Shown here: positions 1,449 to 59,833 of the stretch, in pieces
Layout: each line of letters opens with the position of its first letter
Numbering within the stretch: position 1 is the stretch's first letter
Assembly (NCBI GenBank): GCA_024275165.1
Contig: JAJRZQ010000036.1
Span: 24,919 to 88,918, forward strand
Length of the DNA stretch: 64,000 nucleotides
Reading direction: 5' to 3'
From: a bacterium
Lineage (GTDB): Bacteria > SAR324 > XYD2-FULL-50-16
Made by a program: the position numbers and the translations under genes
The notes under the pieces: generated by a model
Databases searched by the model: none
Seen by the model: the letters and a program-made list of their open reading frames with translations, nothing else
Told to the model about the DNA's origin: nothing

Positions 1449-3001
1449 GCGAATTTTTGATTTTGCAATACACCGACGCGCATGGTCGTTATCTAAGCCA
1501 TTTGCCGCAAGATCAAGCCATTCGCTTAAAAGGGCTGGACCGACTTTCGACCTATTTGCGACCGGTTCGAGCAAGCAGAACCGAATACCTGCTCATCGAC
1601 AATGGAGACAGCATTCAAGGCCAGCCTCTCGTTGATCTATGGCAGCCCCCTCCAATCGACGATCCTCGATTGGATCACCCCTTAAACTTGCTTCATCGCG
1701 CTTTGGGGGTGCACGCCTTTGTTTTGGGGAATCACGAGTTCAACTTTGGGCTACAGCGACTCCAGGAAATTCAAGCCCATAGCCAGGTCCAATGGCTCGG
1801 GGCCAATATTTTACAAGAGGGGCAACTCGTTTACGACGCCTATGGAATCTTTGAGCGAGAAGGGGTCAAAATCGGGGTTTTGGGACTGATCACCGAATTC
1901 GTTCCCAAATGGGAGCCAACCCAAGCCTTAAAAAGCCTCACCTTTGCCAATGTGATCCAAACCGCAAGGCACTGGATCCCTAAAATCAGAGAAGAATGCG
2001 ACCTCTTGGTGGTTTCATACCACGGTGGATTGAATACCAACCCCGTCACGGGGGAAAAGCTCGGGGCCCTTTCCTTAGAAAATCAAGGTTGCGAACTTTG
2101 GGAAGAATTCCCCCAAATAGATATACTTCTCACCGGGCACCAGCACCGTCAAATCTTAACCGACCCGGCGGACAAAGCCCTCTTGGCCCAAGCCTCTTGT
2201 CAGGGGCGTTGTTGGGCAGAGGTGTGGGTGACCCCCCGCCCCTTAATCCAGGTTGCGGGGCAAATCGTGCAAGCCCAAGATTACGACCCCGACCCGGCGC
2301 TTGCCGAATTGCTGCTGCCCAATCTAAAACGCAACGAGAGCTACCTCTCGCAAGTATTGGGCTACGCCGAGCCCAACTTCCAAATCAGCGACCCCATGAC
2401 CGAGGTATGGATCCAAAAACACGCCTTGATCCAATGGATCAACGACTTGATGCTCCAGGCGACCGGAGCGGATATCGCGGCTAGCTCGCTTTTAGACGCA
2501 GAGGTCAAGGGCCTGCCGAGCAAGGTGACCATGCAGGATGTCTTAACCACCTATTTCTTTCAAGATTCTCTTTGCGTCCTCAAAATAACCGGAGAAATCC
2601 TCCAACAAGCCTTAGAGCAGGCCGCCAGCTTTTTTAGCTGCCCCCGGGGGGCAACAAGCTTGGCGGATCTAAGTGTCAATCCCGCTTGGGGTGACTCGCG
2701 GGTCAAAAGTTACAACTATGATTTTTTTGAAGGAATCCGCTACAGCTTCAACCTCTCCAAACCTGTGGGGCAGCGAGTCACAGAGCTTTTCTTTCAAGAA
2801 AAGGAGGTCAAGAAAGAAGACTCCTTCCGCTTGGCCCTAACCACCTACCGGGCAGGCGGCGGGTTTTACGAAATGTATGGCCCCCACCTCATCGTGGAGG
2901 AATTGTCGGTCAAGATCACCGACTTGATGGCCGAGGACTTAAAAGCCAAGGGAACCCTTCATATTCAACCCATTCAAAATTTCCAACTTCTTTTTTCATG
3001 A
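1445..3001 (+). CDS. 5'-nucleotidase/2',3'-cyclic phosphodiesterase family protein (UshA-like)
   Basis: About 518 residues with a calcineurin-like metallophosphatase domain followed by a 5'-nucleotidase C-terminal domain. Metal motifs are visible in order: YTDAHGR, IDNGDSIQG, VLGNHEFNFG, VVSYHGG and ILLTGHQHR. The C-terminal half carries the substrate-pocket region (VLKITGEILQQALEQAA and NYDFFEGIRYS). Family members remove phosphate from nucleoside mono- or cyclic phosphates. Most are periplasmic, but no signal peptide is seen, so a cytoplasmic location is likely. I prefer the TTG at 1445: AGGAG precedes it by four bases and TTG overlaps the PHP stop as TTGA. An ATG at 1382 would add 21 residues inside the upstream gene. 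It overlaps the next gene by ATGA. Confidence 0.85.
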   Translation: MSEFLILQYTDAHGRYLSHLPQDQAIRLKGLDRLSTYLRPVRASRTEYLLIDNGDSIQGQPLVDLWQPPPIDDPRLDHPLNLLHRALGVHAFVLGNHEFNFGLQRLQEIQAHSQVQWLGANILQEGQLVYDAYGIFEREGVKIGVLGLITEFVPKWEPTQALKSLTFANVIQTARHWIPKIREECDLLVVSYHGGLNTNPVTGEKLGALSLENQGCELWEEFPQIDILLTGHQHRQILTDPADKALLAQASCQGRCWAEVWVTPRPLIQVAGQIVQAQDYDPDPALAELLLPNLKRNESYLSQVLGYAEPNFQISDPMTEVWIQKHALIQWINDLMLQATGADIAASSLLDAEVKGLPSKVTMQDVLTTYFFQDSLCVLKITGEILQQALEQAASFFSCPRGATSLADLSVNPAWGDSRVKSYNYDFFEGIRYSFNLSKPVGQRVTELFFQEKEVKKEDSFRLALTTYRAGGGFYEMYGPHLIVEELSVKITDLMAEDLKAKGTLHIQPIQNFQLLFS

Positions 3002-3255
3002 GCGAACTCATTCATCAACTCGATAGCGCGGCAGGGCGAAGCCTCAAAGACAAACTGAAGGATTTTTTAGGGGTTCACCCCTTGGAGCTGGCCCTTCAAG
3101 ATGGAGGGGTATTGCAGGGCATTGTCTCAGAAATCGGCACAGACTACATTCAAGTCATTGAGACAAATGGAGAGGAACGGCTCATCGCCCTGACAGCCCT
3201 CTTGTGGGTCAAGCCCATTCAAACCAACAAGCCACCCCTCAAACTAGGCTTTTAA
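2998..3255 (+). CDS. Small hypothetical protein, possible SH3/Sm-like barrel
   Basis: An 85-residue protein whose ATG overlaps the stop of the nucleotidase gene (ATGA), so it is the third member of a coupled three-gene unit. Residues about 28-72 alternate hydrophobic and polar positions (LELALQDGGVLQGIVSEIG, DYIQVIETNGEERLIALTA), a pattern typical of small five-stranded Sm/SH3-like barrels. That fold is an inference. There is no signal peptide or membrane segment. The last 12 bases overlap convergently with the end of the next minus-strand gene. Confidence 0.65.
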   Translation: MSELIHQLDSAAGRSLKDKLKDFLGVHPLELALQDGGVLQGIVSEIGTDYIQVIETNGEERLIALTALLWVKPIQTNKPPLKLGF

Positions 3256-3564
3256 ATCAATATGCCGCACCCCCATCCAACGATCCCGGAGCCAAAGACT
3301 CCCCAAGGTAAGCACCCCGGGTAAAAGCATAAAAAACATCAAGGCCAGCCAAAACCGATGCTCTGTCGCCCCCCCAAGCCAACAAAAATACGCTTGAAAC
3401 CCGCCTTTAGGAGGAATCGCCAAGAGGCGGGAAAGCAGTTCTTCAACAAAGGCAAAGGCGTTGACGCAGCCGCTCCCCGGCCCCTTCACCCAACCGTAGA
3501 GCCAAATCGCGCTGCCCCAAAGCAGGTAAACGAACAAAAAAAGTATTGGCCTGGGAAGTTTCAC
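3244..3564 (-). CDS. Small integral membrane protein, function unknown
   Basis: A 106-residue protein with two predicted membrane segments: PILFLFVYLLWGSAIWLYGW near the N-terminus and FWLALMFFMLLPGVLTLGSL near the C-terminus, with a roughly 45-residue loop between. The frame is open further upstream, but that part lies inside the pentapeptide gene. The GTG at 3564-3562 sits directly after that gene's stop (AGGTGAGGTG, with AGAGG as ribosome binding site), so I take it as the start. It is therefore downstream of, and probably co-translated with, the repeat lipoprotein. No family recognised. Confidence 0.6.
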   Translation of the reverse strand: MKLPRPILFLFVYLLWGSAIWLYGWVKGPGSGCVNAFAFVEELLSRLLAIPPKGGFQAYFCWLGGATEHRFWLALMFFMLLPGVLTLGSLWLRDRWMGVRHIDLKA

Positions 3565-46965: not shown

Positions 46966-47571
46966 CTACATCGCGCAGGGGTTGCCCTTCATGTGTTGTT
47001 TCATCTCCATTCCGCAGGGATTTTTCATCGCGCAGGGGTTGCCCTTCATGTGTTGTTTCATCTCCATCCCGCAGGGGTTTTTCATCGCGCAGGGGTTGCC
47101 CTTCATGTGTTGTTTCATCTCCATCCCGCAGGGATTTGCCGCGCCACGGGGCATGGTCTTGGCCATGTGATCGTAATAGGCGACCATAGCCTGCATTTTT
47201 GGCCCATCAACAGCAATCGCCTTCCCCTTCAAGGGAGTCGTAATGCAATAGTTGATCATCTCAGGTAGGGTGACCTCTTTGTTCGGCATCTTCACAAAAT
47301 GGGGAAAGGCAAGGTCTAACTTCAACAAGGCCCCACCAGCATGACAAGAGGTACAGGAGCGATCATTCATCCCTAAGCTTGTGTCACTCCAAAGAGCTTT
47401 TCCCTTTCCCTCTAAACTACAAGGGTTTAAGGCCGCCGCGCTACAGGGGTTTTCCATTTTTTGGCTCGGAGCCTTCGCTGTTGTAGTTTTCACCTTTTCT
47501 GCGGGTTTATCACAACCAACAAGAAATAAAGAAGCCGCAAGGAATAAAAGCAAAACAAAGTTAATTCTCAT
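46966..47571 (-). CDS. Mono-haem c-type cytochrome lipoprotein with Cys/Met/His tandem repeats
   Basis: A 201-residue lipoprotein (LLFLAASLFLVGC lipobox). After a Lys/Thr linker come NPCSAAALNPCSL, one haem motif CTSCHAGG, and a cytochrome c fold ending KGKAIAVDGPKMQAMVAYY with an axial Met candidate. The C-terminal 56 residues are nearly exact tandem copies of NPCGMEMKQHMKGNPCAMK (two of 19 and one of 18 residues). Each unit has two Cys, four Met and one His, an unusually soft-metal-friendly composition. Copper or another metal binding is inferred; NPC repeats are known from other proteobacterial cytochrome-linked proteins. GGAG upstream of the ATG fixes the start. Confidence 0.8.
   Translation of the reverse strand: MRINFVLLLFLAASLFLVGCDKPAEKVKTTTAKAPSQKMENPCSAAALNPCSLEGKGKALWSDTSLGMNDRSCTSCHAGGALLKLDLAFPHFVKMPNKEVTLPEMINYCITTPLKGKAIAVDGPKMQAMVAYYDHMAKTMPRGAANPCGMEMKQHMKGNPCAMKNPCGMEMKQHMKGNPCAMKNPCGMEMKQHMKGNPCAM
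46969..47136 (-). repeat. Three 57-bp coding tandem repeats
   Basis: Units begin at 46969, 47026 and 47083 and differ by only two or three bases, mostly synonymous. High nucleotide identity implies recent expansion or ongoing homogenisation, so copy number may vary between strains. Confidence 0.85.
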
Positions 47572-47691
47572 CGGGAAACTCCAATTTTAGGGTTTTAAAA
47601 TTTATTATAAAAATAAAGCAAAAAAATGTCTATATTCTTACCCTTATTTTTCCCTAAGGCATTCGGAAAAATTTTTAGAAAGGTTACATTA

Positions 47692-47868
47692 TTATTTGCG
47701 GCGTTTACTCCAAAAATACCAGAAAAGCCCAATGGCAAGGGCAATCCCCAGCACAATCAAGACTTCCGACAAACTATTGGCCTGTTGGTGCTTTCTAAAA
47801 GCCTTGGCCGTACCCAAAGGGGAATAGGCTAAAAGTTCATGTAGAGGACTCAGCAATAGAAGATTCAT
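47692..47868 (-). CDS. Small single-pass membrane protein
   Basis: A 58-residue protein from ATG 47868 to TAA 47692. A soluble N-terminus, MNLLLLSPLHELLAYSPLG, is followed by AFRKHQQANSLSEVL, a membrane helix IVLGIALAIGLFWYFW and a basic tail SKRRK, suggesting an N-out, C-in tail-anchored protein. It overlaps the end of the mannosyltransferase-like gene by 32 bases in another frame. A weak CGAGAA lies before the ATG. It is preferred over a plus-strand open frame in the same place because it has membrane-protein character and a positive-inside tail. No family recognised. Confidence 0.5.
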   Translation of the reverse strand: MNLLLLSPLHELLAYSPLGTAKAFRKHQQANSLSEVLIVLGIALAIGLFWYFWSKRRK

Positions 47869-48991
47869 ATTGTTCTCGCATAAAAAGGGTTGCCCCTAAG
47901 CTTGCCAGGGCAGCAAGCCAAACCGGGGAGGAGAGGTAATAGGCAAAATGAAGAGGCACTAAAAAGAAAAGGACATACCGAAATCGAACCTCCCTCATTA
48001 AGGGTAAAAGAGGAACGAGATACCAGGGGAAGCCGGGAGGGGTGATTAAAAAAAGCAACCCTAAGACCCAAACCCCCTCTTGCAAAAAAGGCTTGGACCA
48101 AAGCCAAAAAAAACCGAGCGGTAGGCCGATTCCGGCTAAAATAATCCTTGCCAAGTCCTGATCCAAGGCAAGGCGTAAAAGAAGGTAAAAGGGGCTGACC
48201 CCATCTAAGGAACGATAAAAAACCAGCAGACCGGCAAAGGGGTGCAGGGGGTAAAAGGGAAGAAAGCCAAGCAACAAAACCCCCAAAAAACCTAAACTCG
48301 CCTTTAGGCGAGCCGGCGCGTCCAGCCGCATCAACCAGGGCAACAAGACCAAAGCAGGGGTAAACTTAATTAAGCTCGCCAACCCCAGGCCGACCCCCGC
48401 CCCCCAGGCCCGCCCCCGCAACATCAACCCCAGCGCAAGAAACAAAAAGGGGAGAACCCAAGCGTCAATATGAGCGGAATGAAACAATTCTTGCTGAACC
48501 AGCGGGCAAAATAAAGTGAGACCAATAGCTTGTTTTCCCCTTTCCCTTCCCCAGGTGAATAATGCGGCCCCGCAAAACAACAGCAGCCCAAAGCCATTGA
48601 GCAGCCGTAAAGCGGCCAAACCGGAACCGCTCCAGGCAGCAAGGGCAAAAAGGCCCTCTGCCAAGGGGGGGTAAATTGTCGGGATTTCCGGCTTGGGCAC
48701 CCAATGCCGAGCAAAAAGAGGCAGGTCAAGGGGCCGTTTCCCGTAAGGAATAATCCCCTTTAAGAGCAATTTACCATCAAAGAGATAGCGCAGGTAGTCA
48801 TCGGCTAAAATCGCGGGCTCCCCCAAGCGCAGCAATAGGGGAACAAACCCCAAGCCTAAAACCCACCAGGGGATGGAAAAACGATCCTTTGCATAAAACA
48901 AGCAAAGATAGCCCCCCCAAGCCAAACCCAATTGCCATAAAAAAGGAATGGGCAAAAGCCAAGGTAAGAGGGGGAGCGCATAGATGAGCAT
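47837..48991 (-). CDS. Multi-pass membrane glycosyltransferase (GT87-like mannosyltransferase)
   Basis: A 384-residue, very hydrophobic protein with ten or more membrane helices. The first periplasmic loop holds LADDYLRYLFDGKLLLKGI with IPYG and TIYPPLAEGLFALA, the acidic DD/D plus YPP signature of GT-C transferases such as the GT87 family that use polyprenyl-phosphate sugars. LIKFTPALVLLPWL is typical too. It probably adds a sugar to an envelope lipid or polymer. The GT2 gene precedes it by nine bases, so both belong to one operon. Confidence 0.75.
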   Translation of the reverse strand: MLIYALPLLPWLLPIPFLWQLGLAWGGYLCLFYAKDRFSIPWWVLGLGFVPLLLRLGEPAILADDYLRYLFDGKLLLKGIIPYGKRPLDLPLFARHWVPKPEIPTIYPPLAEGLFALAAWSGSGLAALRLLNGFGLLLFCGAALFTWGRERGKQAIGLTLFCPLVQQELFHSAHIDAWVLPFLFLALGLMLRGRAWGAGVGLGLASLIKFTPALVLLPWLMRLDAPARLKASLGFLGVLLLGFLPFYPLHPFAGLLVFYRSLDGVSPFYLLLRLALDQDLARIILAGIGLPLGFFWLWSKPFLQEGVWVLGLLFLITPPGFPWYLVPLLPLMREVRFRYVLFFLVPLHFAYYLSSPVWLAALASLGATLFMREQYESSIAESST

Positions 48992-49000
48992 CCTTCCCGC

Positions 49001-49753
49001 CTAATCTGCAAGAGGAGGATAAAACCGGCGCAGCAACCGAGAGGGCACCCTCAAGCGGTAAGCGATGAGAATGCTGAGATTCTCAAAAAGAGTGCGCAAT
49101 ACACCTCGCACCCTGTATCGACGAGCGGAAACCTGGATTTTCCCAAAAGCTTGGGGCGGCCCCAGGCTTTTTCTCGCTTGGGTGGTAAAATGTAAATCCT
49201 CCAAAAAATCACCTTGAAAGGGGGCCTCTTTCCAAAAGGACTTTGGAAAAAGCAGCCCATTGCTCCCCACCAGCAAACCCAAAGACCGAAATACCTTGCT
49301 CTGCCCCCAGGCCGAGAGACTCAAGCCCCAATGGAGCAAATCGTAAACCTTGTAAAACCCCCCCCAGGCCAAGGGGGCGGCCTTCTCCAGCTGGACGAGA
49401 AACCCCGCCTGGGGTAGGCAGTCTTCATGCAGCAAGAGAATTTGTTCCCCCTGGCTTTGGAGAATCGCATAATTAAAGGCGGCGGCACGACTGGGCCGCA
49501 GCAAGGGGAGGGGGAAAAGACGCAAAAAAGGGAGCTTTTGTTCCTCCAGCCAAGGCAAAAGCTGGGGTACCGCAGGGGGAAGGAAACTTTCTACAATGAT
49601 CCATTCGAGGTCACCTCGATCTTCAAAGAGTTCCAGCCAGCGCAACCAAAAGGCATCGGGCAGATCCGAATTTGCGGGGTGATAGGCCGCAATCACCACG
49701 CTCAGCCTCTTAGGAGAGACCGAACGCGCGAGGCCTTGCCGAGCCCTATCCAT
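49001..49753 (-). CDS. GT2-family glycosyltransferase
   Basis: A 250-residue GT-A-type transferase. It starts with LSVVIAAYHPANSD, continues with LEWIIVESFLPP and FNYAILQSQGEQILLLHEDC, the acidic metal site, and SNGLLFPKSFWKEAPFQGDF, then DLHFTTQARKS. This is the layout of a small cytoplasmic GT2 subgroup that may synthesise a polyprenyl-linked sugar for the GT-C protein next to it. The ATG overlaps the stop of the PAS kinase gene. Confidence 0.75.
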   Translation of the reverse strand: MDRARQGLARSVSPKRLSVVIAAYHPANSDLPDAFWLRWLELFEDRGDLEWIIVESFLPPAVPQLLPWLEEQKLPFLRLFPLPLLRPSRAAAFNYAILQSQGEQILLLHEDCLPQAGFLVQLEKAAPLAWGGFYKVYDLLHWGLSLSAWGQSKVFRSLGLLVGSNGLLFPKSFWKEAPFQGDFLEDLHFTTQARKSLGPPQAFGKIQVSARRYRVRGVLRTLFENLSILIAYRLRVPSRLLRRFYPPLAD

Positions 49754-50921
49754 GTTCTAAAGGGAGCTGAAGAAAAAAGGTACTCCCCTGACCGCTCCCT
49801 TCAGACTCTGCCCAGGTTTCCCCATGATGCAGCAGAACAAGTTCCCGCACTGAATCCAGCCCTAAACCGGTACTGTTTTTTTTCTCCTTGCCAGGCACCT
49901 GGAAAAAGGGCTCAAAAATACGGCTCAAATATTCTTTTTCAATCCCCTCACCGTTGTCTTGAATACTCAAAATGAGGTCTTGTCCTTGAACTTGGATTTT
50001 CCATTGAATATGGTCTTTGGTGTATTTGATCGCGTTGGAGTGGTAATTCTCTAAAACGCGGCTCAACTGAACGGAGTCGGCCTTGAGGTTCACCGGGTCG
50101 CCTAGGATATCGACAGTGATCGCTTTTTCCTCCTGCTGGGGCCTTAAGGCCCCGACCACCTTGTTGAGCATTTCTTTGATATCGAATTCTTTGATTTTTA
50201 AGGCAAGTTGATTGCTTTGCAGCTTGCTTACATCCAACATCATCAACACCAGATTATGTAGAAAATTGGAGCTTTCCTTGATTTCGCCCAGCATTTCGGA
50301 AAATTCCTCTATTTTTTCTGTCAATGCTTCGGGAATCAAATTATTTTCTTTCATTTCTTTAATATCATAAAGCATTGCGTCACTATTAGCCCCCCCAACC
50401 ATAATTCTGTTTTTCATATCGTGGCGGATTTGACTGGCAAGGTTGTCTTGCCGCTTTTTTAATAATACCTGCTGAGTGATATCAATAAATTGCCCCTGTA
50501 GGCCTTTGAGATATTTTAAGTCGTTGTAGTTGGTTAAGGTGGAAAACAAGGAATAATAATGTGTTGAGCCCTCTACCAAGACCTCAATCTCCGGTATTTT
50601 TGCCCAACCTTGGCGTTCCAATTGGCGTTTAAATTCATCATAATCAGAATCCTTGATCCCAATCTCCGCAAAAAGCCCCCGGAGAGAACGCCCGAGAATG
50701 TTTTTATTGCCGAAAAAACTAGAAAAACGCCGATTCGCGTCCCTTAAAATCAAACCCCGATCCGTAAAAAAACAACCGGTGATGGCATTGCTGAAATTAA
50801 AGAAACTCAAATCCTGGAGAACTCCGGCAGGGAGAACCGACATCAACAATTTTGGTTCAAGATGAGACAAAAAATCCGTAAACAAGTTCCCTAAGGTGTT
50901 GTGTGATTGGTCTGGCTTCAT
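49746..50921 (-). CDS. PAS-domain sensor histidine kinase, cytoplasmic
   Basis: A 391-residue soluble kinase. Residues about 40-155 are a PAS domain (FSNAITGCFFTDRGLILRDA, NRRFSSFFGNKNILGRSL, ending QGQFIDITQQ). The HisKA-type helix has LASQIRHDMKNRIMVGG with H167. The catalytic domain has ENYHSNAIKYTKDH, IQDNGEGIEKE and STGLGLDSVRELV. No receiver or membrane span. No response regulator is adjacent; the CheY-like protein at 12961 or distant genes are candidates. AGAGGGG before the ATG supports the start. Its stop overlaps the GT2 start. Confidence 0.85.
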   Translation of the reverse strand: MKPDQSHNTLGNLFTDFLSHLEPKLLMSVLPAGVLQDLSFFNFSNAITGCFFTDRGLILRDANRRFSSFFGNKNILGRSLRGLFAEIGIKDSDYDEFKRQLERQGWAKIPEIEVLVEGSTHYYSLFSTLTNYNDLKYLKGLQGQFIDITQQVLLKKRQDNLASQIRHDMKNRIMVGGANSDAMLYDIKEMKENNLIPEALTEKIEEFSEMLGEIKESSNFLHNLVLMMLDVSKLQSNQLALKIKEFDIKEMLNKVVGALRPQQEEKAITVDILGDPVNLKADSVQLSRVLENYHSNAIKYTKDHIQWKIQVQGQDLILSIQDNGEGIEKEYLSRIFEPFFQVPGKEKKNSTGLGLDSVRELVLLHHGETWAESEGSGQGSTFFLQLPLEHG

Positions 50922-50956
50922 GGGGCCCCTCTAGCGCAAGGTTGAGTAAAAAATAG

Positions 50957-51829
50957 TTACAATCCTTTTATCGAACCGACCTGGTACTTTCTACGGTGAT
51001 TTTTGACCCAGAGGGAAAGGAAGATTCCCCCCAAGATCAAAAAGGCACTGAGAATCAATTGCAAATCAACAGGCTCTTGTAAAAACAGTACCCCTCCCAG
51101 CACCGCAAGCAAAGGAACCGAGAGCTGCAAAATCGCCGCAGTAGAAAGGGCCAGCCTCCGCAACGCGAGATACCAGAGCAGATACCCCAGCCCCGAAGTC
51201 ACCGCCCCCGACAGCATCGCCAAGACGACTCCCGTAAAACTCCATAAAGGGGGCCCCTGCAACAACAAAAGAATCAGCAGCCCCAAGGGCGCGGCAAAGA
51301 GAAAATTTTTCGCAGTGGCAAAAAAGGGATTGGGGACCGCTTGCCCCCAAACCGAATAGAACCCCCAGGCGGCCCCTGCAATCGCCATGAACAAAGAAGC
51401 GAGCAGAGAAGGGGTTTGCAACCCGGGAGAAAGCATATAGGCAAGCCCCGAAAAGGTCAGCCCCAGCCCCAACCATTCCCCTCGACTCATTGGTTTCCCT
51501 TGATAAAGGGAAACCCCGATCATGGTCACCTGCACCACCGCAAAGAGAATTAAAGCGCCGCTGCCCGCGTCAATCCGCACATAGGCCAAGGAAAAAAAAT
51601 AGGCGTAGACAAATAGAGCCAGGGCCTCCTTCCAACCGGTCCGCAACCAGGTGTTTTTTTGCGGGGAGTGAAATAAAAAAACCGGCAACAATACCACACA
51701 ACCCGATAGAATACGGATGGAGGTGAATTCAACGGGGCCGATTTCATTCTCCTTTAAAGCCAAACGACAAAGAATGGAGTTCGCCGCAAAGGCCGTGAGA
51801 CTAAAAAGACTAAGAAAAAAAACCCCCAT
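50957..51829 (-). CDS. EamA/DMT-family transporter
   Basis: A 290-residue protein with ten predicted membrane helices in two EamA repeats (FLSLFSLTAFAANSILCRLA and LYQGKPMSRGEWLGLGLTFS opening the second half, ending PVDLQLILSAFLILGGIFLS). Relatives export amino acids or metabolites; substrate unknown. I start at ATG 51829; a longer frame to 51961 lies inside the methyltransferase gene. It follows arsM after 13 bases, so co-transcription and export of an arsenic metabolite are conceivable, though not shown. Confidence 0.8.
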   Translation of the reverse strand: MGVFFLSLFSLTAFAANSILCRLALKENEIGPVEFTSIRILSGCVVLLPVFLFHSPQKNTWLRTGWKEALALFVYAYFFSLAYVRIDAGSGALILFAVVQVTMIGVSLYQGKPMSRGEWLGLGLTFSGLAYMLSPGLQTPSLLASLFMAIAGAAWGFYSVWGQAVPNPFFATAKNFLFAAPLGLLILLLLQGPPLWSFTGVVLAMLSGAVTSGLGYLLWYLALRRLALSTAAILQLSVPLLAVLGGVLFLQEPVDLQLILSAFLILGGIFLSLWVKNHRRKYQVGSIKGL

Positions 51830-51842
51830 GGGCTGAGGCCGA

Positions 51843-52907
51843 TTAACAGCCACAGTTTTCTGGGCTTGCGCCTGCCTCGCTAAAGGGGAAATGTCCCCCG
51901 CAGCCCGGAAAAATACCGTAATGGGTGGAAAAATCGCCAAAAAACTCAAAATATGGGGCAAAGCGAGTTTCTTTCAACATTAAATAGCTGTTCCCACAAA
52001 CCAATTCGATTTTGCCCTTTTCAAAACAATGACCCTGATCCAACTTAAAGAGCCGCTCCATCCCCGGAACCCCGCCCAAATAGCGGACAGCCTGCCCGTA
52101 ATCCTCGCAATCCGGCTCCAACTGAGGCAACTTGATCAACCGACAGGTTACGGAAAAAAAGTTAATCCCCTCTAAAGCCTTTTGCGCCCCTTCATTCTCA
52201 ATGGTAATGGGGCTATGCTCCACCCAGCGAGGGTCGGTGAAACCGGCCAATTTAGCGTAATGAAGAAAGTCGCCCCAATATAAGGCCCCTGAAAGACATT
52301 CTCCATACAAAACAGGATCGTTTTTTGAGGCAACGGGGACCCGGCGATGGGCATAAACATCGGAAAAATACAACTCTCCTCCGGTTTTTAAGATGCGATA
52401 GGCCTCTTTCAATACCGCCAACTTATCTTCAACCAAGTTGATCACGCAATTAGAAACAATCAGGTCTTGGCTTTCTTTTAAAATCCGCAGGGCGGCCAGG
52501 TTTTGAATATCCCCTTCTAAAAACTCGATATTGGCCTGGGCATACCCAAACTGCTGGGTATGATAGTCAATATGCTTTCTTGCCACGGCAAGTTGCTCTG
52601 GGGTCATATCCACCCCGATCACATGACCGCTTTCCCCCACGAGCCGACTTAAAATATAAGAATCCCTGCCGGAACCGGAACCTAAATCAAGGACCCGCAA
52701 CCCTGCCAGTTTTTTAGGAATGGTCAAACCGCAGCCATAGAACTTCTCGACCACTTCGGGATGAATTTGCTTGATGATTCTTTTAATTTCATCTGGATAG
52801 CTCGCTGTTGAGCAGCATGCGTTGGTCAGGAGGTCTTCTGTTTTATGTAGGGTTTTCCCATAATATTCTTGAACTTCTTTTTTATGGTCTTTGCCGGACA
52901 GATTCAT
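51843..52907 (-). CDS. arsM: Arsenite S-adenosylmethionine methyltransferase
   Basis: A 354-residue ArsM. The SAM-binding Rossmann fold has VLDLGSGSGRDSYILSRLVG, VIGVDMTPEQL and VSNCVINLVEDKLAVLKEA. Arsenic-ligand cysteines occur as C31 (NACC), C59 (FYGCGL), C154 (SNCVINL) and C204 (YGECLSGAL); the spacings C31-C59 (28) and C154-C204 (50) match those of characterised ArsM enzymes. The C-terminal domain adds Cys-rich CGGHFPF and the last residues ENCGC, a common ArsM tail. It methylates As(III). With ArsS at 56766 it fits arsenosugar synthesis. Confidence 0.9.
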   Translation of the reverse strand: MNLSGKDHKKEVQEYYGKTLHKTEDLLTNACCSTASYPDEIKRIIKQIHPEVVEKFYGCGLTIPKKLAGLRVLDLGSGSGRDSYILSRLVGESGHVIGVDMTPEQLAVARKHIDYHTQQFGYAQANIEFLEGDIQNLAALRILKESQDLIVSNCVINLVEDKLAVLKEAYRILKTGGELYFSDVYAHRRVPVASKNDPVLYGECLSGALYWGDFLHYAKLAGFTDPRWVEHSPITIENEGAQKALEGINFFSVTCRLIKLPQLEPDCEDYGQAVRYLGGVPGMERLFKLDQGHCFEKGKIELVCGNSYLMLKETRFAPYFEFFGDFSTHYGIFPGCGGHFPFSEAGASPENCGC

Positions 52908-52928
52908 TTTATTTTTTCTTTTTTTAGG

Positions 52929-54680
52929 TTATTTGTTTATTTCGTTAAAAATCAGATTCATGCGGTCTTGGACTTCTAAAAAGGCAGACCATACCGCTGG
53001 GCTAAAGCGGTCTGAGCCCGTAATTCCGGTGCGATCATCTTCGGATAAAATACGGAAGGTTTTCTCATGGGAAAATTCCGGTTTGTATTGCCTTGAACTA
53101 CGCAAAGCATCGTAGCTATCAGCCAATCCAACAATCAAAGCCTCAACGGGAATTTCATCCCCCTTTAAGGGAGACAACTCCCGATAGCTTGCCAGATCAT
53201 TGCTCAACTCAGCTTGCTGGTGATTAGGTTGAAGCAAGTTGGGGTAGCCCGCTCCATTGTAGGATTGATGATGGTGCAGGGCGATATTAAAGGCCAGCTC
53301 TAGTTTTGGGTCTTGCTGCGAGGCAAAGTTCATCATGGTTTGGATAATTTTCGCCCCAAAAATCGTATGCATTTGCATTTTTTCTCTTTGTTCCAGGTTA
53401 TATTTCCCCGAAAACTTGATTAAATCGGGCATGGCAACCTTTCCAATATCATGTAAAGCGGCGACTTGAGAAATAGACTTAATAAAGCGAGGCGACATCT
53501 GCATTTGCTCGGCAAGCAAGGCGGAATACCGGTTGACCCGCAAGATGTGCTTGCCTGTAATCTCGTCGCTAAATTCAGCGGCAGCGCAAAGCCCCATGAC
53601 CTTTTGCAAAAATTGCTCTTCATTTTTAATCGCCAAGTCAACTAAAAAAAAGAGAGAATGGGAGGTATTCATGAGGGAATGAAGAAATAATTCATCCTCT
53701 TGGTTTTCTTGATTTTTAGACTGAATCTTATTGAAGGCAATAATGGAAGTATCCCCCTCATGGTAATTGATAAAGTGCCGAATGGGCTCACCTACAAAGG
53801 TTTTAATCCTAGGGTCAAAGGGATATTTTTGTTCAAAATCCTCTTGTGTCATGTCCTCGGTTTTTTGGGCTTGCACCAGCCGTTGCTGCTTGCGCGAAAG
53901 AAGGATCGGGGCGGAAGAATCAAACTCTAAGGCAATCGCTTCTGAACGGATCAGTTCTGCTTCTTGATACTTGCTGGCTTGCCCAATCCAATTGCCGCTC
54001 TTGTCTTTCAGGGCAATAAAGGTGGCCTGATAACCCATCCCCAAAATAAAGGGGGCCAAGCGCTGGTAGATATCTGATTTTTGGGTGAAGTCTTCTAACT
54101 GCCGGATAATTTGATCGCTATAATTGGAAATAGCGAAAATACGCTCATGTAGTCTTTTGACCGAGGAGATATTATCCATCCATACTAAGATGCTATCCTC
54201 CCCCCCCGCATAGAGCAGGCGTTTCACCTTAACCGCATACCACAAATGGCTTTGCTCTGCGTAAAATTCAAAAACCTGAATTTGCTTTTTCTTAGAATAA
54301 AAATGCTCCACCATTGTTTTTACAGCGGTCTCACTAAGGTATTGGGCTAGGTTAGAAACCCCTAAGCTGGCAAAATACTTCTGGGTCTTGCCCATCGCCA
54401 AAACAATTTCACCCCTATGATCCATCACAAAGGCGGGGTCTTTTCGCTCTAAGGGAAGCATGGCAAGCAAGGCTTGAAACCTGTTTTTGTATTTTACGCT
54501 GGAACGAGAAAAAACCTGAACCAAAAAGGGAATGACAAAACCCATCGGAGTCGCAAAAATATTCCCCGTGCCAAACCAATTGATGCTGCCCCCGATTAAG
54601 GCCGCGTTGAACAAGATTTGAGGGTTCGCCATTTCCTGAATGAAAAAACGATAAAACGGTTGTACCGGGTTTTTTAGCAT
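52929..54680 (-). CDS. PAS/HD-GYP cyclic-di-GMP phosphodiesterase-like protein
   Basis: A 583-residue protein. A short hydrophobic N-terminus (LFNAALIGGSINWFG, MGFVIPFLVQVF) is followed by a PAS-like region around 80-190, a GAF-like region, and a C-terminal HD-GYP domain with AALHDIGKVAMPDL near residue 408, MHTIFGAKII, HHHQSYNGAGYP near 475 and LADSYDALRSSRQYKP. The complete HD and GYP motifs predict c-di-GMP hydrolysis. I use ATG 54680, which has AGGG eight bases upstream, instead of the in-frame TTG six bases earlier. It lies between arsM and the NapH-like gene with gaps of 21 and 10 bases, so it is in the same transcript. Confidence 0.85.
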   Translation of the reverse strand: MLKNPVQPFYRFFIQEMANPQILFNAALIGGSINWFGTGNIFATPMGFVIPFLVQVFSRSSVKYKNRFQALLAMLPLERKDPAFVMDHRGEIVLAMGKTQKYFASLGVSNLAQYLSETAVKTMVEHFYSKKKQIQVFEFYAEQSHLWYAVKVKRLLYAGGEDSILVWMDNISSVKRLHERIFAISNYSDQIIRQLEDFTQKSDIYQRLAPFILGMGYQATFIALKDKSGNWIGQASKYQEAELIRSEAIALEFDSSAPILLSRKQQRLVQAQKTEDMTQEDFEQKYPFDPRIKTFVGEPIRHFINYHEGDTSIIAFNKIQSKNQENQEDELFLHSLMNTSHSLFFLVDLAIKNEEQFLQKVMGLCAAAEFSDEITGKHILRVNRYSALLAEQMQMSPRFIKSISQVAALHDIGKVAMPDLIKFSGKYNLEQREKMQMHTIFGAKIIQTMMNFASQQDPKLELAFNIALHHHQSYNGAGYPNLLQPNHQQAELSNDLASYRELSPLKGDEIPVEALIVGLADSYDALRSSRQYKPEFSHEKTFRILSEDDRTGITGSDRFSPAVWSAFLEVQDRMNLIFNEINK

Positions 54681-54690
54681 AAACAAGTCC

Positions 54691-55803
54691 CTATTCGATT
54701 CGGTTTGGAGTTACTATTTTATTTATGGGCTTAAAACTTAAGGCATCCTTGGGGCAAATGTCGATACAACCACCGCAACCGATACAAAGGGTTTGGTTTA
54801 AGCCAAAACTACCTTGGATCGGAGTTTTATCCTTGTGCGCGTATTGAGCTACATCAATCCCCATCGGGCAGGCCTGGGAACAGAGGTTTAAGCCTTTGCA
54901 ATTTTCATTGGCCACCACTTCAAACTTAGACCCGGCGTAGCGACCAAAGAGTTCCATCCCCTTAGCCAAGGGGCAACCAAAGCGGCACCAAACGCGAGTG
55001 CCCAAAAAAGGATAGGCCCCTACCCCCACCAAAGCGCCAAAAATATAATCCACGGCAATATCTTGATAGTACTTTCCCGCTAAAAGTAAAGATTCGGCGG
55101 TAAATAATTTGAGCATATCAAAAAAAAGAACAAATCCATAGGCCAAACCGAGAATCAGCAAGAGGGTTTGCAAAGGTTCTGTTTTTTTGGCTCTTGGGCT
55201 CGTGGGGGTTTTATGTTTGACCCAGTTCTTGCCCCAAGAGGTCACCCCGATGGTTTCGGCCAAGTTGCCGCAGGCGCAAAACCAGGAACAATATCGCTTG
55301 CCAAAAAACCAGACCGAAAGGGGAACCAAACCAAAAACATAAAAAATCCCTCCCCAAGAAGTAAAGGCTTTGGATACATACACATAGGCATCTAAAGTTG
55401 TGGGAGCAACCGGGTCATAAAATAAATCCTGCCCCTTAAGCCAAGGTATGATCACAAAGGGAAGCAGAAAAAAAAACAGGAGTTGCGCCACAAAGATACT
55501 GGTGAACTTCGCTCTTTGGTACCGGGATAAGGCGGGATTCTTCCCCTTTTTATAAGGTGACTTCCCCTGGACTACGACCTTGCCGGCGATAAAACAGACT
55601 AAAGCGGTATAGCCCAAGCCATACCAAAAAGCGGGATGCTTATCGAGGAAAAAAAAACTTCGCACATCGTGAACCCAGCCTAATTGCACAACAAGTTCAT
55701 GACACTTGTAAACCCCGTAGCCCACGATTACTAAAGGGAGATAAAAAACTATAAAAACCCGTTCTAAATTAGATCGTTGATAGACCCCTTTTGCGTAACT
55801 CAT
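54691..55803 (-). CDS. NapH-like membrane ferredoxin (4Fe-4S)
   Basis: A 370-residue membrane protein with about five helices and the NapH/RdxA/NosR-type Cys motifs: RYCSWFCACGNLAE and WCRFGCPLAKGME in the membrane part, then two soluble clusters, NCKGLNLCSQACPMGIDV and CIGCGGCIDICPKDAL. It passes electrons across or along the inner membrane, typically from menaquinol. No terminal reductase is adjacent. Its place between HD-GYP and DUF547/ArsS suggests it could supply reducing power to the arsenic pathway, which is inference. ATG 55803 is preferred to an adjacent GTG. Confidence 0.85.
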   Translation of the reverse strand: MSYAKGVYQRSNLERVFIVFYLPLVIVGYGVYKCHELVVQLGWVHDVRSFFFLDKHPAFWYGLGYTALVCFIAGKVVVQGKSPYKKGKNPALSRYQRAKFTSIFVAQLLFFFLLPFVIIPWLKGQDLFYDPVAPTTLDAYVYVSKAFTSWGGIFYVFGLVPLSVWFFGKRYCSWFCACGNLAETIGVTSWGKNWVKHKTPTSPRAKKTEPLQTLLLILGLAYGFVLFFDMLKLFTAESLLLAGKYYQDIAVDYIFGALVGVGAYPFLGTRVWCRFGCPLAKGMELFGRYAGSKFEVVANENCKGLNLCSQACPMGIDVAQYAHKDKTPIQGSFGLNQTLCIGCGGCIDICPKDALSFKPINKIVTPNRIE

Positions 55804-56001
55804 CACTTCATCCGGTTCATAAAAAATTCAAACTAAAAGCGGCTTGGATTGTCGTTGCAACGAAAATGATTCCTCCCACAAATAAGGGTCAGGGCTATTT
55901 TCTCTCCTTCAAGCCATCCATTTACGCTGCGCCTTGAGTTGGCGGATCCTCCCTGACCCACCTGCAAACCTCTGAATTTTTCAAAGGTTGTTTTAGTCGA
56001 A

Positions 56002-56769
56002 CTAAATTCGATTGAGCGACCAATCGTAATCCAAAAAACTCAATTTCGCTTTTTGACTTTTAATCTGGACTTGCTCCGCTTTATTTGGGGTAATCCCTTC
56101 AGCTATAAAGTTTTCCACCGAGCCTGCGGCATGGATAAAGTCTTCTGCAAACCAAGAAAAAATCTTCGAAAGGTACAATGTATTGGTTTTAGGGTCATAG
56201 CGATTTCTGCTGGAGTCGCCCAAAAAGGCCATCTTGGCCTGTTCCAGTTGCCGGTCTAGGCTTGGAGCCAAGTAGGGGCGATTCGATAAGGCGGGGCAAC
56301 CCACCGAGGCGCAGACAATGGCAAAGTGAATTCGCGGCTCGTTGTATTTTCCCCTCAGCCATTGGTGTTCCAAGGCGTCTAAATTATGGATTTCCCCTAA
56401 GAGGGTGAAGAATTCCTTGTCCCAGGGACCGGAAAACCAACCTCCTAAATCCTTGATGGAATCGAGACGGGGATACTTCGTCAAAATAAGCTTTAAGGTA
56501 TAGGCATTGTAGGCATTGATCAAAAAAGACAACTGCTCGGGTTGGCTCCAGGCATTGAACTCTTGGAGGGGAACCCGTTCTAAGTCTCTTAGGTAGGCGT
56601 TGAGCTGACCTCGATGTTGTTGGAGCCAGGCATAATTGACCTGAGACCTTGCCCCCTGAAGGCGTACCGATTTTTCCAGCAGGGCTGCGAACTGGGTATG
56701 GCCAGCGTCAAAGGCCTGTAGAGGGGGAACCAAAAGAAACAAAAATAAAAAAAGAATTAGATTTCTCAA
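56002..56769 (-). CDS. DUF547 secreted protein
   Basis: A 255-residue exported protein: signal peptide NLILFLFLFLLVPPLQAF, then a DUF547 domain with NYAWLQQHRGQLNAYLRDLE, LSFLINAYNAYTLKLILTKY, the NLDALEHQWLRGKYNEPRIH segment, HFAIVCASVGCPALSNRPY and FLGDSSRNRYDPKTNTLYLS. DUF547 proteins have a papain-like fold with a Cys/His pair; the Cys in VCASVGCP and His are present. The start is TTG 56769, overlapping the ArsS stop as TTGA. DUF547 genes are repeatedly found beside arsS genes, and a processing or transport role is possible. Confidence 0.85.
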   Translation of the reverse strand: MRNLILFLFLFLLVPPLQAFDAGHTQFAALLEKSVRLQGARSQVNYAWLQQHRGQLNAYLRDLERVPLQEFNAWSQPEQLSFLINAYNAYTLKLILTKYPRLDSIKDLGGWFSGPWDKEFFTLLGEIHNLDALEHQWLRGKYNEPRIHFAIVCASVGCPALSNRPYLAPSLDRQLEQAKMAFLGDSSRNRYDPKTNTLYLSKIFSWFAEDFIHAAGSVENFIAEGITPNKAEQVQIKSQKAKLSFLDYDWSLNRI

Positions 56770-57746
56770 GAGGCCCCCTCTACGGCAAGCGCTCCCCCGC
56801 AAGAACTTCCCGCTCCCGCTGTGCAACCAAAACAATGTTCAGCAAAAGCAATGGACTGACCCGCTAAGTCTAAGCTTTGTATCTGAGTCACATCTTGCGC
56901 GTAAGCGCCAAAGCCCATCGCTTGATTGAAATCGCAATCAAACAATTGCCCTCGGTAATCTATTGAAACCAAACTTTTGCACATCACCGCCTCCACAGCC
57001 TTGGGGTTAAAATTCGCCTGCAATAATTCTTGATAGGCCTCATATTGGTTTTCTTTGTGTAAGAAACGGGCAAAACGCCGAATCGGCATATTGGTAAGGG
57101 TAAAGAGTTGGTTAAAACGGATGCCAAAATCATGGGCAAGGCGTTTGCGATATTCGGCTTCCAAATTCGCTTGATCCCCAGGGAGAAAGGCCCCACCGGG
57201 GTTGTAAACCAAGTTTAATTCCAACGCTCCCTGGCCGTAACCTAATTGATTTAACTGTTGTAGAACCCGTATACTTTGCCCAAACACCCCCTTGCCTCGT
57301 TGCTGGTCCACATTTTTTTCCCCGTAACAGGGCAGAGAGGCGACGATTTTCACCCCGTTCCGGGCCATCCAAGCGGCTGTATCTTCTTGACCCGGCTCAA
57401 GCAAAATCGTTAAATTACAACGATCCGTGACGGCAAGCTTAAGCTTGCGAACCTCTTGGACAAAAAACCGAAAATGAGGGTTCATTTCCGGGGCTCCACC
57501 GGTCAAATCGACCTCTTGAATCGTCGGGGTCGCTCGCAGCAATTCAAGCAATCGTTGCAGGGTGGCCAAACTCATCACCTCGGTTCTGCCGGGGCCGGCC
57601 GCTTGGTGGCAATGCTCACAAGCCTGATTGCAGAGCCGACCCAGATTGACTTGCAAAACCTCGGTTTTCCCTCGCTGGGTTGAAAGAGACTCCTGCTCTA
57701 ATTTGTTTAAAAACGAATTCTGTGAAAAAGAGGGCTGTTGGTTCAT
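56766..57746 (-). CDS. arsS: Arsenosugar biosynthesis radical SAM protein
   Basis: A 326-residue ArsS-type radical SAM enzyme. It has CNQACEHCHQAAGPGRTEVM (SAM cluster C39, C43, C46), EVDLTGGAPEMNPHF, SLPCYGEKNVDQQRGKGVF, LELNLVYNPGGAFLPG and the C-terminal auxiliary Cys set HCFGCTAGAGSSCGG. In characterised systems ArsS uses SAM to add a 5'-deoxyadenosyl group to dimethylated arsenic made by ArsM, giving arsenosugar precursors. AAAGGA before the ATG fixes the start. It heads the minus-strand run after the sigma/anti-sigma pair, 68 bases downstream of it. Confidence 0.9.
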   Translation of the reverse strand: MNQQPSFSQNSFLNKLEQESLSTQRGKTEVLQVNLGRLCNQACEHCHQAAGPGRTEVMSLATLQRLLELLRATPTIQEVDLTGGAPEMNPHFRFFVQEVRKLKLAVTDRCNLTILLEPGQEDTAAWMARNGVKIVASLPCYGEKNVDQQRGKGVFGQSIRVLQQLNQLGYGQGALELNLVYNPGGAFLPGDQANLEAEYRKRLAHDFGIRFNQLFTLTNMPIRRFARFLHKENQYEAYQELLQANFNPKAVEAVMCKSLVSIDYRGQLFDCDFNQAMGFGAYAQDVTQIQSLDLAGQSIAFAEHCFGCTAGAGSSCGGALAVEGAS

Positions 57747-57814
57747 GAGTTCCTTTACTATTTATCTTATCTATTCGTAACCAAGTTACTGAAGGTTACA
57801 AAAAGCCAAATTGT

Positions 57815-58453
57815 TTACCAGTGCAGGACTTTCTTCCCCACCATAAAGCCCAAAAGGGTAAAGAGAATCGTGGGGGCAAGGTGCCAAGCCAGTTGATGAT
57901 AAATGCCGTCATTTTGCTCCAAAAGCATTAAGGCAAAATTGCCCATTGAAGTGGCCAACAAAAGAGATAACGCCCCAGACCAGGCAGGCAACACCGGGGC
58001 AAGCCGCTTGATTTGAGCAAACTGAAAGGTCCCGGGAAGAAGCAGAAAAAGCATGCAGTTCTTGATGCAAAACATATTCAATTCATGGGGATGAATGAGT
58101 TCGGGGCGATTCAACCAAATTTGCTGTAAAGTCACCACCAAACTCAACGCCCAAAGCCCTGCGGGGATAAAAGGAAGCAGACGAACCCAATGGGGAGATT
58201 GCAGGTCTGGAATGGCGATCCAACAAGAAACAGAGGCACTGGCAATGGCGGTAAGTCCAAGCAGGATGAGGTTGGTTAGGTATACAGGCTGAGCCAGTTT
58301 GAGGGCCAAATCCGGCCTTAACGAATAGATGCTGCCGAGCAAGAACAAAAACCCCACGCTAAAGCCCAAACCCCGCATGGCCCCACCCCAAGGACTGCAA
58401 ACCGAGATTTTTGCTTCTTCACTTAAAGAGGCGATTAAACTTTGATTACTCAT
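57815..58453 (-). CDS. NrsF-like (DUF1109) anti-sigma factor
   Basis: A 212-residue protein with six membrane helices (LGFSVGFLFLLGSIYSL, LTNLILLGLTAIASASVS, LLPFIPAGLWALSLVVTL, CMLFLLLPGTFQFA, LSLLLATSMGNFALML, LAPTILFTLLGFMVG). Cys at positions 40-190 resemble those of NrsF, the membrane anti-sigma factor that holds an ECF sigma under heavy-metal or redox control. It overlaps the sigma gene by eight bases, the usual arrangement. Metal or arsenic responsiveness of this pair is inferred from NrsF and from the downstream arsenic genes. Confidence 0.8.
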   Translation of the reverse strand: MSNQSLIASLSEEAKISVCSPWGGAMRGLGFSVGFLFLLGSIYSLRPDLALKLAQPVYLTNLILLGLTAIASASVSCWIAIPDLQSPHWVRLLPFIPAGLWALSLVVTLQQIWLNRPELIHPHELNMFCIKNCMLFLLLPGTFQFAQIKRLAPVLPAWSGALSLLLATSMGNFALMLLEQNDGIYHQLAWHLAPTILFTLLGFMVGKKVLHW

Positions 58454-59012
58454 CTTTGTTTGCTCGAAGTAGGGCCGTAATCCGTTTTAAGCTACGATGA
58501 ACCGACACCTTGACCGCGGTCTCCGTCATCCCCATCTCTTTGGCTGTTTCTTTAGAACTGTAGCCTTCAATTTTCGTCATTTGCACCAATTTTCTTTGTT
58601 TGGGCGGTAACTGATCTAGTGAATCTTTGAGTTGTTCGCTCAACCCCTCCCCAAAGGTTACATGGCGATCTTCTTTTTCTTGTTCTAAGTTAGCTGAAAA
58701 AGCTTGTTCTAGATTATTACGACGATAACTGCTTCGAAAGTGATCTTTCATACGAAAATTCGCAATGGCGAACATCCAGGGTTTAAAGGGGCGATGAGAT
58801 TGGTAGGTATGACGCGATTTATGAATCGAAATCAGGCATTCTTGAATCAGATCGTTTAAGTCCTCTGGATTGTTGACCTGGGAACGCAACATAGATTTGA
58901 GCATTCGTTCACATTGCCCCAGCAATTTTGCGTAAGCCGCCTGATCCCCCTGTTGCGCCCGGAGCATCAAACTTTCTAAGCTTTCCTCGGCTTCCTTACT
59001 CAATGTATTCAT
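58446..59012 (-). CDS. ECF RNA polymerase sigma factor
   Basis: A 188-residue sigma-70 family ECF factor. Region 2 has LNDLIQECLISIHKSRHTY and KPWMFAIANFRMKDHFR; region 4 has SLDQLPPKQRKLVQM, EGYSSKETAKEMGMTETAVK and VSVHRSLKRI. Together with the overlapping NrsF-like protein it is an ECF41/NrsF-type signalling pair in outline. It likely transcribes the downstream operon through arsS and arsM under envelope or metal stress. An own promoter was not resolved. Confidence 0.85.
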   Translation of the reverse strand: MNTLSKEAEESLESLMLRAQQGDQAAYAKLLGQCERMLKSMLRSQVNNPEDLNDLIQECLISIHKSRHTYQSHRPFKPWMFAIANFRMKDHFRSSYRRNNLEQAFSANLEQEKEDRHVTFGEGLSEQLKDSLDQLPPKQRKLVQMTKIEGYSSKETAKEMGMTETAVKVSVHRSLKRITALLRANKDE

Positions 59013-59177
59013 CCAAACTGATTTGCCTCACTCTTTTAAAACTCGAATCAATAAATAGCCTTGCGATTGATTTTGTAGGTTGTCAATCAAGTTTAAAAAT
59101 CCCCTAAAGGAGGTTGACTTTTTTGACCTCTAGAGGGGGACGAGTCCCCTATAACACAGGGAAAAGCATGATTTTAC

Positions 59178-59206
59178 TTGACTTTATAGACGACCGGTCA
59201 TATTGT
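59178..59206 (+). promoter_or_regulatory. Promoter with embedded TetR operator
   Basis: TTGACT (59178-59183) and TATTGT (59201-59206) are separated by exactly 17 bases, a good sigma-70 pair. The spacer holds ACGACCGGTCAT with its palindromic core GACCGGTC, which would block RNA polymerase when bound. The 15-base string ACGACCGGTCATATT recurs exactly at 59870, flanking the same regulator gene. Confidence 0.7.
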
Positions 59207-59236
59207 CAATTGAGAATGAAGCGAAAAGAAAAAAGG

Positions 59237-59833
59237 ATGAAACAGAATTTTAAACGAGAAGAAACCCACCGCCGCCTATTGGACACAGGGTTATCCCTAT
59301 TTATTCAGCAAGGGTATCATGGTACGGGGGTCAAAGAGGTTGTGGATCAAGCGCAAACGCCAAAGGGCTCTTTTTATACCTATTTTTCCAGCAAGGAAGC
59401 CTTTGCGGGAGCCGTTGTCGAACACTTTGCCCAACAAGGCATTGAACACTTAGAAGCCACCCTATGCCAAGCAAAAACCCCCTTCGAGGGCCTTTATTCT
59501 TTTTTCCAACTGAATCGAGACCGCTTTATGGCGCAAAACCTTACAGGAGGGTGCTTGCTTGGTAATTTCTCCAACGAGCTCGGGGCACAAGCCTTGGAAA
59601 TCACCCCTCACCTCTTAAAGGGCTTTGCGAATCTTTCAAATCGTCTTGCTGATCTTATCAAAGAGGCCCAAAGAGAAGGGCAAATTCGCGTTGATTTACC
59701 TCCTGCCACCTTAGCCGACCTCTTACTCAATGGCTGGGAGGGCGCCTTAATGAGAGCCAAAATACAACGCAGCGTAAACCCCTTAAATCAATTTTTGCGA
59801 AATTATTTTGAGGTGTTGCTTTGCGCAGCATAA
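59237..59833 (+). CDS. TetR-family regulator, likely autorepressor
   Basis: A 198-residue TetR regulator. The HTH is THRRLLDTGLSLFIQQGYHG, TGVKEVVDQAQTPKGSFYTY and FSSKEAFAGAVV. The C-terminal domain has NLTGGCLLGNFSNELGAQAL, a pattern of TetR regulators that control small-molecule or electrophile response genes (NemR-like type). I begin at the ATG 59237, which gives the standard N-terminus; 59216 is also in frame. An operator sits in its own promoter, and an identical one lies upstream of the peroxiredoxin-like gene it precedes. Confidence 0.8.
   Translation: MKQNFKREETHRRLLDTGLSLFIQQGYHGTGVKEVVDQAQTPKGSFYTYFSSKEAFAGAVVEHFAQQGIEHLEATLCQAKTPFEGLYSFFQLNRDRFMAQNLTGGCLLGNFSNELGAQALEITPHLLKGFANLSNRLADLIKEAQREGQIRVDLPPATLADLLLNGWEGALMRAKIQRSVNPLNQFLRNYFEVLLCAA

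Follow-up and report, generated by a model that had tools for sequence, protein, structure and literature searches.

We analysed a bacterial locus that occupies positions 46966 to 59012 of the window, the whole stretch of 64,000 nucleotides of DNA under study. The features recognized at this locus are as follows.

58446-59012, minus strand: ECF sigma factor (ECF16/sigma-F-like), with Sigma70_r2 and Sigma70_r4_2 domains
57815-58453, minus strand: NrsF-family (DUF1109) anti-sigma factor (PF06532, 84 bits)
57774-57799, minus strand: candidate sigma-F/ECF16-type promoter for arsS, an exact match to the consensus GTAACC-N16-CGAA
56766-57746, minus strand: arsS, arsenosugar radical SAM protein for arsenic adenosylation (TIGR04167)
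56002-56769, minus strand: DUF547 protein, probably exported (PF04784, 85 bits)
54691-55806, minus strand: NapH-like membrane polyferredoxin with Fer4 domains
52929-54680, minus strand: predicted HD-GYP-like c-di-GMP phosphodiesterase with a membrane N terminus (PF01966 and PF13487)
51843-52907, minus strand: ArsM arsenite methyltransferase of the arsS-associated subtype (alignment with CmArsM)
50957-51829, minus strand: EamA-family transporter, collinear (PF00892; start set to the ATG at 51829 from the sequence)
49746-50921, minus strand: PAS-type sensor histidine kinase, collinear (matches to many histidine-kinase models, PnpS among them)
49001-49753, minus strand: glycosyltransferase-2-like protein with a weak match to TIGR04283, arsenosugar glycosyltransferase (60 bits against a cutoff of 182)
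47837-48991, minus strand: GT87-like integral membrane glycosyltransferase, collinear (open reading frame without any NCBIfam match; GT87 label by eye)
47662-47687, minus strand: second exact GTAACC-N16-CGAA, candidate second sigma-F target (pattern match)
46966-47571, minus strand: c-type-cytochrome-like lipoprotein with Cys/Met repeats NPCGMEMKQHMKGNPCAMK (open reading frame; weak SoxA-like match)

A preliminary description of this DNA had named the seven genes from the ECF sigma factor to ArsM as joined in one direction. This is correct, since all seven lie on the minus strand at the coordinates above and match their families, with a gap of 195 nt parting the DUF547 gene from the NapH-like gene. 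That description included neither the sigma-F-type promoter between nrsF and arsS (57774-57799) nor the collinear genes downstream of ArsM for the EamA transporter, the histidine kinase, the TIGR04283-like glycosyltransferase and the GT87-like protein, with which the collinear run extends as far as 47837. The ECF and nrsF genes overlap by 8 bp, the gap between nrsF and arsS is 68 nt long and reads TGTAACCTTCAGTAACTTGGTTACGAATAG, and the TTG start of the DUF547 gene overlaps the arsS stop codon. The NapH-like, HD-GYP and ArsM genes are likewise collinear and lie 4 and about 20 nt apart. Divergent from the ECF gene, at 59114-59833 of the window, lies a gene for a TetR-family regulator (AcuR-like, below cutoff), which could affect ECF expression.

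The identity of ArsS, as judged from profile and motifs, is secure. It scores 427 bits to TIGR04167, well above the equivalog cutoff of 300, it also contains DUF3641, and its CxxxCxHC, DCDFN and C-terminal GSSCGG motifs are kept in every relative aligned. Solved arsenite methyltransferases can be aligned with ArsM over almost its whole length, and in the PDB alignment the ArsM residues C31, C58, C154 and C204 fall on C44, C72, C174 and C224 of solved CmArsM. All four catalytic or arsenic-binding cysteines are thus kept, in agreement with the cysteine spacing of active enzymes noted previously. ArsM scores below the cutoff of PRK11873 (169 bits, cutoff 263) and of NF038099, the NCBIfam model for arsenosugar ArsM (87 bits, cutoff 400), and the latter is also missed by four arsS-linked ArsM proteins of the same subtype (84-113 bits). 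ArsM is 50-55% identical to the arsS-linked ArsM of loci L078, L138, L142 and L150, and these relatives adjoin arsS or lie close to it in a Bdellovibrionales MAG, Psychrobacter, Pseudogulbenkiania and a cyanobacterial MAG. Three other genomes of the window's phylum, all with arsS, encode an ArsM that is 57-58% identical. In L348, one of these three and from the same family as the window genome, a 58% identical DUF547 gene precedes a 58% identical ArsM gene. A gene for a MIP-type channel, recognized by eye, follows ArsM in L348 (667-3348) and in L349 of the same family (1492-3416), and it is possible that this channel is a route for arsenicals.

As in ECF16 systems, the ECF gene (PF04542/PF08281) adjoins a gene of the PF06532 family. 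The ECF protein is 41% identical to an ECF beside NrsF in L282 and 32-37% identical to ECFs beside arsS in L124, L188, L203, L236 and L244, while the closest NrsF relative found, also in L282, is 31% identical. Such values do not indicate a recent transfer from the sampled donors. An alignment of 15 NrsF proteins shows the structural cysteine C129 to be invariant. At the position of the periplasmic cysteine proposed as the sensor (C179 in Brucella, C181 in Caulobacter), the window NrsF and that of L282 both have Glu. The window protein therefore has the first of the two cysteines conserved in ECF16-type NrsF (C129/C131 and C179/C181) and Glu in place of the second, suggesting that its signal may differ from chromium, cadmium and hypochlorite. 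That NrsF senses metal or redox stress, as proposed in the preliminary description, is plausible from the work in Caulobacter and Brucella, but the proposed sensor cysteine is missing here. At the conserved site of the window NrsF, C129 forms a C129-xxx-C133 pair with a second cysteine (FCIKNC). We consider it a rather unlikely, speculative option that a protein with this pair and with Glu for the sensor cysteine would sense arsenite or methylarsenicals directly, giving an arsenosugar response that is ArsR-independent and controlled by an anti-sigma factor.

The sequence GTAACC-N16-CGAA is the sigma-F binding sequence of Caulobacter (PMC3511200), and (T/C)GTAAC-N17-CGAA is the ECF16 promoter consensus (PMC8315932). 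An exact GTAACC-N16-CGAA lies at 57799-57774, 27 nt ahead of the arsS start codon, and with its preceding base, as TGTAACC-N16-CGAA, it also fits the ECF16 consensus. When the 200-nt region upstream of arsS is shuffled 200,000 times, the site appears in 16 of the shuffled sequences. The 10 specified bases are matched exactly at five places in the genome, which is about the number expected by chance, so that position alone speaks for the arsS site. Three of the five, as judged from their sequence contexts, are apparently in coding sequence, and the two that are clearly intergenic are both in this locus, one before arsS and the other before the gene for the Cys/Met-repeat lipoprotein. Matches with one mismatch number about 100, again in line with chance, and listing a sigma-F regulon across the genome from the pattern alone was given up on these counts. 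A strong sigma-70-like promoter (11 of 12) lies between the second site (47662-47687) and the lipoprotein gene, which makes sigma-F control of that gene uncertain. The repeats of the lipoprotein resemble in outline the methionine-rich repeat proteins of ECF16 regulons. Upstream of the ECF gene itself (59012, minus strand) there is no sigma-F site with up to two mismatches, and autoregulation is thus not indicated.

Loci with arsS were sampled from the window's phylum, from named public genomes and from an order of Burkholderiales genomes, giving 195 loci with a readable start region, in which a few genomes are counted twice. A strict site, defined as GTAACC-N16-CG[AT]A no more than 330 nt upstream of the ArsS core, is present at 9 of these 195 other loci, against 0.08 expected from shuffles. 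In the 80 arsS genomes covered by the NrsF search, NrsF is encoded in all nine with a strict site and in 10 of the 71 without one (Fisher p = 4e-7, ignoring relatedness; the related positive loci are phylogenetically non-independent). An ECF-NrsF pair lies adjacent to and divergent from arsS in L124 (Roseateles MAG-222), L188, L203, L236 and L244 (Burkholderiales). Each of these five Burkholderiales loci has one site towards arsS and, unlike the window, another before the ECF gene; the arsS-facing site of L188 is the only one of the ten with a single mismatch. At least two genomes, those of L268 and L270, have a site at arsS without an adjacent pair and have their NrsF gene next to MNIO-like sequence, recognized by eye. 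An MNIO neighbourhood of NrsF, the bufferin setting, has been named before (PMC12452194). This arrangement suggests that arsS in genomes of this type joined a pre-existing sigma-F regulon. The MNIO gene (PF05114) is absent from the window genome, which rules out bufferin/MNIO as a sigma-F target there. In the majority of genomes with arsS, both NrsF and the site are absent. Within the window's phylum, NrsF is found in one of 52 genomes, the window genome itself, where it is single-copy, and arsS scores above cutoff in 13. In the 12 other arsS neighbourhoods of the phylum blastp detects no relatives of the ECF factor, NrsF or ArsM and a DUF547 relative in one, and no sigma-F site is present at arsS in the phylum relatives without NrsF. 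In the phyla of L078 and L093, none of the best loci that were inspected has NrsF beside arsS. The two plasmid arsS loci examined, those of Cupriavidus KK10 and B. glumae, lack both a match to NrsF and a strict site close to arsS, and no relative that is both named and in culture was found to have the ECF-NrsF-arsS arrangement. Sigma-F/NrsF control of arsS, as predicted from sites and gene content, is recurrent but not universal.

We regard it as likely, and as the best explanation of the promoter and gene arrangement, that the arsenosugar operon is under a dedicated sigma-F (ECF16)/NrsF switch. At rest, the membrane protein NrsF would hold the ECF sigma factor, and envelope stress from a thiol-reactive metal, a metalloid or an oxidant would cause NrsF to free it. 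The freed sigma factor would bind GTAACC-N16-CGAA upstream of arsS and start transcription of arsS-DUF547 and probably also of the downstream run. As(III) would then be methylated by ArsM, and ArsS would add the 5'-deoxyadenosyl group of SAM to give an arsenosugar precursor. Control of the arsenosugar genes by ECF and NrsF was already part of the preliminary description, and it gains from the exact site at arsS and from the linkage and promoter that recur elsewhere. It is much less probable that the ECF-NrsF pair is only a neighbour of the arsenosugar genes and controls others, such as the gene for the Cys/Met-rich lipoprotein 10 kb off or general envelope stress genes, with arsS on a housekeeping or arsenic-regulated promoter. 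The second exact site ahead of the lipoprotein gene would fit such a role, as would the uniqueness of NrsF in the phylum and the lack of NrsF in most genomes with arsS. However, the exact site immediately upstream of arsS, the recurrence of linkage and sites in the five Burkholderiales loci and the ability of a strict site to predict NrsF in a genome all argue for the dedicated switch. The switch is further favoured by the place of nrsF, the only such gene in the genome and the phylum, immediately ahead of arsS, by the lack of a site at arsS in the phylum relatives that have no NrsF, and by the absence here of the MNIO/bufferin genes that often accompany NrsF. Points against the switch are the chance-level number of exact sites in the genome, the ECF gene without a site of its own, the Glu in NrsF, the many arsS genomes devoid of NrsF and site, and the relatedness of the positive loci.

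The preliminary description went further, proposing that stress sensed by NrsF leads to arsenosugars with electrons passed to ArsS from the NapH-like ferredoxin and with a c-di-GMP output through the HD-GYP protein. NapH is a quinol-linked membrane ferredoxin, and we know of no case in which it is an electron donor to a radical SAM enzyme. Collinearity and the short gaps among the NapH-like, HD-GYP and ArsM genes speak for this extended version, but NapH-like relatives occur in none of 92 arsS neighbourhoods and in none of the other 51 genomes of the phylum, HD-GYP matches near arsS are few and never adjacent in the same 92 neighbourhoods, and the gap of 195 nt (55807-56001), without a recognisable RNA, splits these three genes from arsS-DUF547. 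Neither the electron supply nor the c-di-GMP output therefore finds comparative support, and we consider the extended version very improbable. The neighbourhood that had been expected to be conserved in other arsS genomes is so for ECF/NrsF and for DUF547, relatives of which occur in 9 of the 92 neighbourhoods, and not for NapH or HD-GYP. A conserved partnership of the latter two with arsS is accordingly rejected, and both genes are probably lineage-specific additions. The NapH-like protein scores 58 bits to TIGR02163, below the NapH cutoff of 213. The HD-GYP-like protein (52929-54680) has an HD domain with HDIGK, HHHQSYNGAGYP and DSYDAL motifs, in keeping with HDxGK, HH and GYP, so that its activity is predicted; ahead of its middle part there is seemingly a short membrane N terminus. 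The 195-nt gap holds an inverted repeat, GGGTCAGGG/CCCTGACCC, and a riboswitch or other structured RNA was rejected here because there is no Rfam match and the fold is no better than that of shuffles. Returning to the arsS site, it is highly doubtful that the match is a chance or palindromic coincidence that recurs only because a few of the genomes are related. In favour of this view, an inverted repeat (GTAACC...GGTTAC) overlaps the element, a copy with one mismatch reads the opposite way, and some of the positive loci are close to each other (in four of them the ECF proteins are 59-84% identical). Against it, the shuffle frequency is low and the positives, with unrelated spacers, span Roseateles MAG-222, the divergent L188 (one mismatch; ECF 48-56% identical to the others), L120, deltaproteobacterial L093 and the window's phylum.

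No paper tying arsenosugar biosynthesis to a sigma factor was found in the open-access literature. The switch type and the pathway are each known; their combination, which recurs across lineages and is backed by promoter evidence, seems not to have been described in the open-access literature searched. In Caulobacter crescentus the sigF-nrsF system (ECF16, PMC3511200) likewise has an ECF gene beside NrsF and an identical promoter, GTAACC-N16-CGAA. The targets reported in the available portion of that source are not arsenosugar genes, whereas in the window arsS is the nearest predicted target. The Caulobacter sigF gene is autoregulated, while the window ECF gene lacks a site and the window NrsF lacks the second signalling cysteine. 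The hypochlorite systems bcrS-abcS of Brucella and sigF-nrsF of Azospira (PMC8315932, PMC4623255) also combine ECF16 with a DUF1109 anti-sigma factor, and their regulons include a methionine-rich repeat protein, to which the Cys/Met-repeat lipoprotein of the window is similar in outline. Unlike these systems, the window locus has arsenosugar synthesis as its predicted target, and MsrPQ-type genes were not noticed in it. Both enzymes of the cyanobacterial ArsM-ArsS pathway (Cheng et al. 2021 for ArsS, as cited in PMC12159101) are present in the window, and in the cyanobacterial MAG of L150 an ArsM of the same subtype adjoins arsS. The window differs from that pathway in its own sigma/anti-sigma pair and its NapH-like and HD-GYP genes. 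If the sigma-F promoter does act at arsS in several lineages, arsenosugar synthesis would join a known regulon for envelope metal and oxidant stress, which would give a list of inducers (Cu, Cr, Cd, HOCl and As(III)) and a DNA signature predicting which genomes use the switch. A Burkholderia glumae plasmid (NZ_CP100267, L345) also has an ECF sigma factor and an anti-sigma-like gene near arsS and DUF547, but the protein beside the sigma factor is annotated zf-HC2 rather than NrsF. This suggests that sigma/anti-sigma control in the vicinity of arsS may have more than one origin. In that plasmid region (1637-5936), the different ECF gene and the zf-HC2 gene near arsS/DUF547 are accompanied by CcdA and thioredoxin genes.
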